Origin: an uncultured bacterium
Lineage (GTDB): Bacteria > Bacillota > Clostridia > Lachnospirales > Lachnospiraceae
Reading direction: 5' to 3'
Assembly (NCBI GenBank): GCA_947651225.1
Contig: CANSYK010000001.1
Location: 1-64,000 of the forward strand
DNA length: 64,000 nucleotides
Made by a program: the position numbers and the translations under genes. Position 1 is the first letter of the stretch. Every line of letters begins with the position of its first letter. Below the pieces are notes generated by a model. The model had not been told where the DNA came from, did not search any database, and saw nothing but the letters and a program-made list of their open reading frames with translations. Positions 37,882 to 62,825 of the stretch are shown one piece after another.

Positions 37882-37887
37882 ATGTAT

Positions 37888-39066
37888 ATGACAAAAAATT
37901 TGGATCAGTATTTTATTCATACCTATAATCGGTCGGTTGTTTTTGAAAAGGGTGAAGATGTCTATTTATATGATAACAAGGGGAAAAAATATCTGGATAT
38001 GGGAGCTGGCATTGCTGTTTCTGCGCTGGGCTACAGCAATGAAGAGTTTAAGCAGGGAATCAAAGAGCAGATTGACAAACTCATTCACATTTCCAATCTC
38101 TACTATACAAAGCCGATTCTTAGTGCGGCAGAATATCTGGCAAAGGCTTCTGGTATGGATCGTGTATTTTTTACAAACAGTGGTACTGAGGCAATTGAAG
38201 GAGCTTTAAAACTTGCAAGGAAATATGCTTACTTAAAAGATAACAGCAGCAAAGGGGAGATTATTGCCATGGAACATTCCTTCCACGGCCGTTCTATGGG
38301 AGCGCTTTCTGTCACTGGTACAAAGCACTACCGTGAAGCCTTTGAGCCGCTAATTGGAGGGGTTTCTTTTGCTAAGTATAATGATTTGGAAAGTGTGGAA
38401 AAGTTAATTACAAAGGATACCTGTGCAATTATTTTGGAAACAGTACAGGGAGAGGGCGGAATTTATCCTGCCAGTGAGGAATTTATCAAAGGAATCCGTA
38501 AACTCTGTGATGAAAATGATATTGCAATGATTTTAGATGAAATCCAGTGTGGCATGGGCCGTACAGGAACAATGTTTGCCTATGAACACTATGGAATTTT
38601 GCCGGATATTATAACAAGTGCAAAGGCACTTGGAAATGGTGTTCCAGTTGGTGCCTTTGCGGCTGTTGAAAAGTTTGCCAAAACAATGTGTCCGGGAGAC
38701 CACGGAACAACTTATGGTGGCAATCCATTGGCGGCGGCGGCTGTCTGCAAGGTCTTTGAAATCTATAAAAAAGAAGGAATTTTAGATCATGTGAGGGAAA
38801 TGTCTTCGTATTTCTTTGAAAAGTTGAAGACGCTTTTGGAAAAATACCCTTCGGTTGTTAAAGAGGTTCGAGGGAAGGGATTGCTTTTAGGATTGGAAGT
38901 GTCCTGTCCAAACGGGGAAATCGTGCAAAAAGCAATGGAAAAAGGATTGGTGCTTTTAACAGCAGGTTCCAATGTTGTTCGTATGGCACCACCTCTTGTT
39001 ATTAAAAAAGAACATCTTGATGAATGTTGTCATATTCTGGATGAAATATTATCTGAGATGTCATAG
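37888..39066 (+). CDS. argD: Acetylornithine aminotransferase
   Basis: FFTNSGTEAIEGALKLARKYA; HSFHGRSMGALSVTG; MILDEIQCGMGRTG. Confidence 0.95.
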   Translation: MTKNLDQYFIHTYNRSVVFEKGEDVYLYDNKGKKYLDMGAGIAVSALGYSNEEFKQGIKEQIDKLIHISNLYYTKPILSAAEYLAKASGMDRVFFTNSGTEAIEGALKLARKYAYLKDNSSKGEIIAMEHSFHGRSMGALSVTGTKHYREAFEPLIGGVSFAKYNDLESVEKLITKDTCAIILETVQGEGGIYPASEEFIKGIRKLCDENDIAMILDEIQCGMGRTGTMFAYEHYGILPDIITSAKALGNGVPVGAFAAVEKFAKTMCPGDHGTTYGGNPLAAAAVCKVFEIYKKEGILDHVREMSSYFFEKLKTLLEKYPSVVKEVRGKGLLLGLEVSCPNGEIVQKAMEKGLVLLTAGSNVVRMAPPLVIKKEHLDECCHILDEILSEMS

Positions 39067-39106
39067 TGAATTGTATGATTTTTTAGGTAATGGGAAATAC
39101 TAGGTT

Positions 39107-39207
39107 CAGGTGCAAAAGGATGCGCTTGCCTGGCAGAACTTCTGGTTTTTTCAAACACGTTCCAGGAACTCCTTTTGCGTCAATATTGGCAAAAAAGGAG
39201 TTTTTTT
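39107..39207 (+). promoter_or_regulatory. Candidate structured cis-regulatory leader (riboswitch/attenuator-like)
   Basis: GCAAAAGGA(39112)/TCCTTTTGC(39170); CCTGG/CCAGG; AACTCCTTTT(39167)/AAAAGGAGTT(39193) + T-tract abutting ATG 39208. Confidence 0.5.
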
Positions 39208-39651
39208 ATGTGGGGAATGATCATATCAGTTATTTCAGGTGCTTTGATGGCATTGCAAGGCGTTTTTAATACACAGGTAACGAAACAGACCAGTGAATGG
39301 GTATCCGCTTCTTTTGTTCAGCTTTCTGCTTTGATTGTTTGCCTGGCGGCATGGTTTATCACAGGGCGGGAAAGCAGTTTTAGTGGGATTTTTCATGTCA
39401 GGCCACTCTATCTATTGCTTGGCGGGGTGATGGGAGCCTTTATCACTTATACTGTAATTATTGGAATGGAGCAGCTAGGTCCTGCAAAAGCGACACTTTT
39501 TATTATTGCCGCACAACTGATTGCCGCCTATGCAGTGGACTTGTTTGGCTGGTTTGGAACAAAGCAGGTGGGATTTGACTGGTTTAAACTTGCTGGGGTT
39601 GTTGTGTTTATAGCTGGCATTGTGATATTTAAATGGAAGGAATTGTTCTAA
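39208..39651 (+). CDS. DMT family transporter (YdcZ/DUF606-like)
   Basis: SVISGALMALQGVFNTQVTKQTSEWVSASFVQL; LLGGVMGAFITYTVI; 4-5 TM helices. Confidence 0.8.
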   Translation: MWGMIISVISGALMALQGVFNTQVTKQTSEWVSASFVQLSALIVCLAAWFITGRESSFSGIFHVRPLYLLLGGVMGAFITYTVIIGMEQLGPAKATLFIIAAQLIAAYAVDLFGWFGTKQVGFDWFKLAGVVVFIAGIVIFKWKELF

Positions 39652-61375: not shown

Positions 61376-61942
61376 TTAAATACCTAATCGTTTGCAGATC
61401 TCTGTAAAGTTGATATACAAATCATCATAGATATTGACCTTGATAGCTGATTCAAAGGAAAGCTGGATGGAAACCTCATTTTTCTCAAAATAATTAACGG
61501 TAACCGTTTTTCGCCTTGGGTCAACAATCCAGTATTCCCGTACTCCGTAATTCTTGTAGTAGTATGCTTTTTTGATATAATCATCAGATGGATTGCATGG
61601 AGAAACAATTTCAATAATAAAGTCAGGGGCTCCATTACATCGTTGTTCATCCAGTTTGTCCTTGTCACATACAATCATAATATCCGGTTGAACGATGGTA
61701 AGGGGTTCCTTTGATAGTATTACATCAAAGGGAGCAGGAAAGACTTCACAATTTCCATTCTTTTTTTGGATGTAAGTATAAAATGTCGTTATTAAGTCTG
61801 TAATCAGGGCTTGATGAATGCGTGATGGGCTTGCCATGTCATAGACGATACCTTCAAAAACTTCTACACGTTTATCATCCGGCAGGGCTTCATACTCTTT
61901 AAGAGTAATATATCCTGGCTGTGGCTGTAATGCTGATGCCAT
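61376..61942 (-). CDS. Uma2 family (DUF820) putative endonuclease-like protein, paralogue of 22949-23512
   Basis: LTIVQPDIMIVCDKDKLDEQRCNGAPDFIIEIVSPCNPSDDYIKKAYYYKNYGVREYWIVDPRRKTVTVNYFE. Confidence 0.88.
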   Translation of the reverse strand: MASALQPQPGYITLKEYEALPDDKRVEVFEGIVYDMASPSRIHQALITDLITTFYTYIQKKNGNCEVFPAPFDVILSKEPLTIVQPDIMIVCDKDKLDEQRCNGAPDFIIEIVSPCNPSDDYIKKAYYYKNYGVREYWIVDPRRKTVTVNYFEKNEVSIQLSFESAIKVNIYDDLYINFTEICKRLGI

Positions 61943-62199: not shown

Positions 62200-62825
62200 A
62201 CTACCGGCTAAAGCCGGTAGGTTCGAATTGCTGCTAAAGCAGCCTAAAGTTGTCTCTGCTCAAGGTTATTGATTTTCTCCTCCACTCTTATCCTATTTCA
62301 AAGTTATCTGAATTGCTGCTCTCTTGAATATCTTGATTTCGAATATACTCCCTGATAATTTCATCTGTTACATTTCCACTGCTCGCAACAAAATATCCTC
62401 CCGCCCACAAATGCTGTCCCCAGAATTGTTTGTTCAATTCTTTATACTCCATTTGCAGTTTTCTGGAAGTATTCCCTTTCAGATACTGTACTAATTTACT
62501 GGCTGACAAACGCGGAGGAACTGAAACCAATAAATGTATGTGGTCACTCCCTACATGCCCTGCTAATATTTCCACTTCATTATTCTGGCAGATCATTCGT
62601 ATCAGTTCCCTTGTTCTCAATGCTATCTTCCCTGTAATCACTGGCTTTCGGTATTTTGTTATCCAAACCAGATGATACTTGATATCATATGTGCAATGTG
62701 ACGATTTTCTGTAATTTTCCATATAGCTCACCTCAAGTTTAGTATTCCAACTTTTCTTTATTCTAAACTTGAAGCTATGGGGTTGACCTAAAGGTTTCGC
62801 CTTAAGGCGAGGGTTTTAACCCCCT
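62200..62825 (-). mobile_element. IS200/IS605-type insertion sequence (tnpA only), approximate limits
   Basis: TnpA ORF flanked by hairpins CTACCGGCtaaaGCCGGTAG, GCTGCtaaaGCAGC on one side and TCGCCTTAAGGCGA on the other. Confidence 0.7.
62288..62722 (-). CDS. tnpA: IS200/IS605 family transposase TnpA (Y1 HUH)
   Basis: YDIKYHLVWITKYRKPVI; HVGSDHIHLLVSVPP (HUH); GGYFVASSGNVTDEIIREYI (catalytic Tyr). Confidence 0.93.
   Translation of the reverse strand: MENYRKSSHCTYDIKYHLVWITKYRKPVITGKIALRTRELIRMICQNNEVEILAGHVGSDHIHLLVSVPPRLSASKLVQYLKGNTSRKLQMEYKELNKQFWGQHLWAGGYFVASSGNVTDEIIREYIRNQDIQESSNSDNFEIG

Follow-up and report, generated by a model that had tools for sequence, protein, structure and literature searches.

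Competing helices and a predicted forespore promoter in the leader of a ydcZ transporter gene of Lachnospiraceae

The argD-ydcZ leader and its two helices

We analysed the leader of ydcZ in a 64-kb stretch of DNA (hereafter the window), in which argD is the gene 5' of ydcZ and a gap of 141 nt separates the two (Table 1). The initial annotation had called the downstream gene a DMT transporter, and the profile match assigns it to the YdcZ type. Orthologues came from 28 genomes within the genus (21 of which carry one), 299 genomes of the family, 246 genomes of the class and GTDB contigs (mostly Lachnospiraceae). Our searches retrieved no meaningful YdcZ relative among solved structures (best E-value 0.036), no relative on viral contigs and, among the main texts of open papers, none that names YdcZ as a sporulation gene.

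Table 1. Features of the argD-ydcZ region, in window coordinates
Feature	Position	Strand	Remarks
argD (acetylornithine transaminase)	37882..39066	+	TIGR00707, E-value 1.3e-151
-35 element GTATG	39073..39077	+	Full match to GHATR
-10 element GGAAATACTA (GGnnAnAMTR)	39093..39102	+	15-nt spacer; kept in nearly all genus leaders
5' arm of alternative stem	39109..39120	+	At predicted 5' end of forespore RNA
5' arm of SD-masking, terminator-like hairpin	39167..39176	+	From pair probabilities
3' arm of alternative stem	39170..39181	+	Overlaps 5' arm of SD-masking hairpin
3' arm of SD-masking hairpin	39193..39202	+	Includes GGAG (SD) at 39197-39200; T-run 39201-39207 follows
ydcZ (147-aa DMT_YdcZ half-size transporter)	39208..39651	+	PF04657, E-value 3e-30

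The core of the alternative stem (the 5' stem) pairs GCAAAAGGA (39112-39120) with TCCTTTTGC (39170-39178) and extends to 12 base pairs, two of which are G-U. The hairpin that masks the Shine-Dalgarno sequence (SD) pairs AACTCCTTTT with AAAAGGAGTT and is followed by seven T and then by the ATG. Positions 39170-39176 are common to both helices, which are mutually exclusive. The initial annotation had read both pairings, their mutual exclusion, the SD within the 3' arm of the hairpin and the T-run abutting the start codon correctly, the outer stem being even longer than it had described.

With RNA energies computed without ribosomes or proteins, the 146-nt region folded at -45 kcal/mol versus -31.0 (sd 3.3) in dinucleotide shuffles (z -4.25; none of 200 as good). 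For the RNA spanning 39109-39207, the fold with the SD hairpin reached -29.6 kcal/mol versus -20.7 kcal/mol for the fold with the 5' stem, and since it is lower by about 9 kcal/mol the SD hairpin would be favoured at equilibrium; its pair probabilities were 0.80-1.0 in this RNA and 0.94-1.0 in longer RNAs. In a folding computation on the growing RNA, the 5' stem appeared first (from about 39178 onward) and was replaced by the SD hairpin by about 39198. A generic terminator scan called no terminator at the leader hairpin; an interrupted stem and a long loop are the probable reason, and we regard the predicted termination of transcription at this position as plausible. The initial annotation had seen here a terminator and SD sequestration set against a 5' stem; SD masking and the competing stem hold, and the hairpin is terminator-like in form with an empty terminator scan. 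Neither sequence inspection nor the scan found a canonical terminator between the argD stop and the promoter described below.

We rejected a dispersed palindromic repeat as the origin of GCAAAAGGA and TCCTTTTGC, since their other genomic matches lack hairpin context and look mostly coding-like (GAT GCA AAA GGA) or due to chance. A leader peptide or upstream ORF running through the hairpin was set aside, the reading frame being lost in leader L004.

Leader conservation and the forespore-type promoter

The pairings were largely not conserved in homologous leaders and extended to about five closest species only. They are present in L002, in L003 (which retains both), as the 5' stem in L007 (3' arm lost) and L008 (where this stem is preferred up to full length, giving an open fold), and partly in L004; they are absent from the other leaders of the genus, including the short leaders L005, L006 and L010, which lack the alternative-stem pairings. 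In L004 (genome G005), the two arms of the stem are parted by an inverted-repeat insertion of about 0.7 kb (ends ...CCCCACGGAAATCAATTTTCAGTATATA...), which sits some 0.7 kb before ydcZ and separates the promoter from the gene. The remaining leaders of the genus have in common only the block GGGAAATACT and the SD.

GNATA is found 14-15 nt upstream of this block, and the pair fits the B. subtilis sigma-F/sigma-G consensus; the -35 element of the window differs from GNATA in its last position (GTATG). We searched for GHATR-N14/15-GGnnAnAMTR or GHATR-N17/18-CATAMTA, which we take to be the sigma-F/sigma-G consensus strings of the B. subtilis type. With the consensus applied after the leaders had been inspected (a concern that re-testing on held-out sequences reduced and did not remove), exact matches were found in 35 of 100 distinct ydcZ leaders from Lachnospiraceae (0.3 in shuffles) and near matches in 72 of them (3.6 in shuffles). 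Upstream of 264 further ORFs from the same loci, used as a control, there were 1 exact and 17 near matches, and in other families of Clostridia the motif preceded ydcZ in 16 of 28 leaders (0.9 expected). For spoIIR, known to be under sigma-F control, 15 of 29 upstream regions also held a near match, and in the genome of the window itself spoIIR is preceded by a full match (GCATA-N14-GGCAATACTG) and sigG by GTATA-N14-GTAAATCCTA. C. difficile sigma-F/sigma-G promoters have been described as very similar (PMC3789822).

The window site, 105 nt from the ydcZ ATG, scored 18.0 bits with a position weight matrix trained on other genera only (none of 200 shuffles as good) and was the best site for this matrix in the 64 kb, both strands included; it predicts a transcription start at about 39105-39112. 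A sigma-70 promoter was rejected for GGGAAATACT, which lacks a -35 consensus and was not called by a promoter scan. Judged from its sequence, the conserved block upstream of ydcZ is a sigma-F/sigma-G type promoter. The initial annotation had named two findings that would speak against its own riboswitch reading, namely pairings not conserved in homologous leaders and a hairpin serving as the argD terminator with a separate promoter for the transporter; the lack of conservation and the separate promoter, of forespore type, were both largely borne out.

Among the 299 family genomes, 129 carried both ydcZ and spoIIR, 44 ydcZ only, 19 spoIIR only and 107 neither (Fisher p 1.6e-25, relatedness uncorrected). 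We rejected spoIIR as the sole sporulation marker on account of the 44 ydcZ genomes with no match to it: 42 of these encode a sigma factor of sigF/sigG grade (E-value 1e-84 or better), so spoIIR is an incomplete marker, and the remaining two (G111 and G136) have ydcZ matches of E-value ~1e-7 only. The promoter was found in 26 of the 34 ydcZ-only genomes examined, and no sigF/sigG-grade sigma factor was present in 28 of 29 genomes lacking both genes. ydcZ occurs together with the sporulation sigma factors, as would a member of the sigma-F/sigma-G regulon, and is most likely switched on only within the developing spore.

As a separate observation, many Lachnospiraceae genomes with a sigF/sigG-grade sigma factor (from the 44 family genomes above) give no match to SpoIIR (PF09551), perhaps through loss, divergence or a missed model, although nearly all other spore formers have this protein.

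Masking of the ribosome binding site in orthologous leaders

Many ydcZ orthologues have an anti-SD strand in the promoter spacer or in the -10 element, 5' of the predicted start (such as AAAACCGTCC in L176, AAAACCTCTCTGC in L104 and CTCCCTTTGCG in L277), so that only read-through RNA would carry the masking pairing and forespore RNA would be free of it. In L010, L012, L104, L168, L176, L267, L277 and L282, the sporulation -10 sits in the loop of a terminator-like, SD-containing hairpin directly before the ydcZ ATG. Roughly one in three of the tested orthologues has a promoter-started RNA without the masking 5' strand; anti-SD strands of this kind, written in a sporulation promoter, could be sought before other forespore genes.

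Across 63 leaders, opening the SD cost 5.8 kcal/mol with the native upstream sequence versus 3.5 kcal/mol with upstream sequences swapped between species and 3.4 kcal/mol with shuffled ones; in forespore RNA the cost was 3.0 kcal/mol (p 4e-5). The native upstream ranked above all 12 swaps in 19 of the 63 leaders (4.8 expected). For 45 previously unused leaders the values were 6.35 (native), 3.4 (swapped) and 3.3 kcal/mol (forespore RNA; p 5e-5), with 18 leaders beating all swaps versus 3.5 expected and SD partners at -28 to -1. By these sequence statistics, strands embedded in the promoter mask the SD in leaders across the family, and they would act as a shield against read-through.

In B. subtilis, a large hairpin in the sigG leader blocks translation of spoIIG read-through RNA, and sigG also has a small damping hairpin at its ribosome binding site (PMC5942855). 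The ydcZ arrangement resembles that of sigG in having a forespore promoter between the upstream gene and the SD and a hairpin that would mask the SD in read-through RNA, and in many orthologues, as in sigG, the masking hairpin cannot form in promoter-started RNA. It differs in that ydcZ is a DMT transporter gene from another lineage, and in that the full hairpin of the window fits in the promoter-started RNA and competes with the 5' stem. The T4 gene e, soc and I-TevI leaders, which are silent in the long RNA and translated from the short one, likewise have a developmental promoter where the 5' strand of the SD hairpin is encoded, although these are phage late promoters and the passage drawn on here mentions no T-run terminator immediately ahead of the ATG (PMC3014915).

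Start site and rival readings of the window leader

In the window, the SD is masked in read-through RNA, with an opening cost of 11.1 kcal/mol (the family means also lie above their controls), and the entire SD hairpin, including the masking 5' strand, is contained in the promoter-started RNA, where opening costs 9.7 kcal/mol. At equilibrium both RNAs would consequently be silenced, and the simple shield test fails for this leader, leaving damped expression or help from the 5' stem as the alternatives. The native upstream of the window gave no clear excess over swapped ones (11.1 against 10.3 kcal/mol).

The probability of the 5' stem in nascent RNA was 0.94-0.99 for any start between 39105 and 39112 (0.99 from the promoter), and 0-0.17 in read-through RNA carrying 8-100 nt of extra upstream sequence, depending on its length, because the 5' arm is locked by pairing of CCTGG with CTAGGTTC (ending at 39107). 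Shuffled upstream sequences were equally low in 2-8 of 30 cases at most lengths and in 16-30 of 30 at others, which leaves the start-site effect not significant and the step built on it conjectural. A weaker form of this dependence was seen in L003, and none in L007 or L008.

We propose argD as the source of the read-through RNA that reaches the ydcZ leader. RNA polymerase with sigma-F (or sigma-G) would start the ydcZ transcript at the predicted site, and the hairpin 39167-39202 would silence argD read-through RNA: with the SD enclosed in its 3' arm and a U-run at its end, it could both terminate transcription and block translation. Forespore-started RNA, free of CTAGGTTC, would fold the 5' stem first, and this may let it evade the shield long enough for expression; no ligand would be needed. 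A forespore-specific ydcZ transcript, with a leader hairpin silencing argD read-through, is in our view the best explanation and a reasonably probable one, all of the evidence being computational and the start sites predicted. Both the role of the window hairpin as a shield and its relief by the 5' stem are inferred, and the hairpin may damp sporulation expression as well. The further step from 5'-stem folding to a start-site-dependent switch, in which a forespore start would give the anti-terminator and an open SD and arrival from argD the terminator and a closed SD, is weakly supported by these computations and we put it forward tentatively, as doubtful. If true, a developmental sigma factor would be the input in place of a riboswitch ligand.

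The hairpin could instead merely damp translation of the forespore RNA, like the small sigG hairpin of B. subtilis, with read-through and the 5' stem irrelevant. This precedent (PMC5942855) and the position of the hairpin within the forespore RNA, at about 9.7 kcal/mol to open, agree with such a role; yet the window hairpin is far stronger than the sigG one (roughly -6 kcal/mol) and would nearly abolish expression, and L005, L006 and L008 show no SD masking (1.0-2.2 kcal/mol), and we consider damping alone unlikely. If the hairpin were simply the intrinsic terminator of the argD operon, overlapping the ydcZ SD by accident, and the 5' stem were due to chance, this would account for the U7 tail, for the lack of any other terminator between the two genes and for the canonical terminator that the relative L126 has there instead. 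Lying 3' of the ydcZ promoter, however, such a terminator would stop the gene's own transcript too, and the 5' stem survives in L007 and L008, whose terminator fold is disfavoured or gone, which makes an accidental terminator improbable.

A ligand-binding riboswitch, as the initial annotation had suggested, or a protein-responsive attenuator controlling the transporter shares with the ydcZ leader a pair of mutually exclusive helices, one holding terminator and SD, both retained in L003, but we give it very little credence: the window has no Rfam match at gathering score (best local E-value 4-10, chance level), the pairings are broken in two of the about five close species beyond which they are not conserved, and the leader has no conserved aptamer-like core. 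In a riboswitch class the conserved part is expected to be the riboswitch itself; here it is the promoter block rather than the pairings, so the riboswitch reading is unlikely. Terminator and anti-terminator helices exclude each other in transcription-terminating riboswitches and attenuators as they do here, whereas in the ydcZ leader the start site could decide instead of a ligand.

Under the forespore reading, the supposed orphan riboswitch becomes a testable developmental arrangement, and YdcZ emerges as a putative conserved forespore gene product in Lachnospiraceae and other Clostridia, raising the question of which substrate this DMT protein would move across the forespore membrane.

Elsewhere in the window, positions 62288-62731 (- strand) encode a protein resembling IS200/IS605-type TnpA transposases, whose flank at about 62200-62250 bears hairpins (ACCGGCTAAAGCCGGT, GCTGCTAAAGCAGC), and positions 61376-61942 (- strand) encode a 188-aa protein that resembles Uma2/DUF820 nucleases in sequence appearance only.
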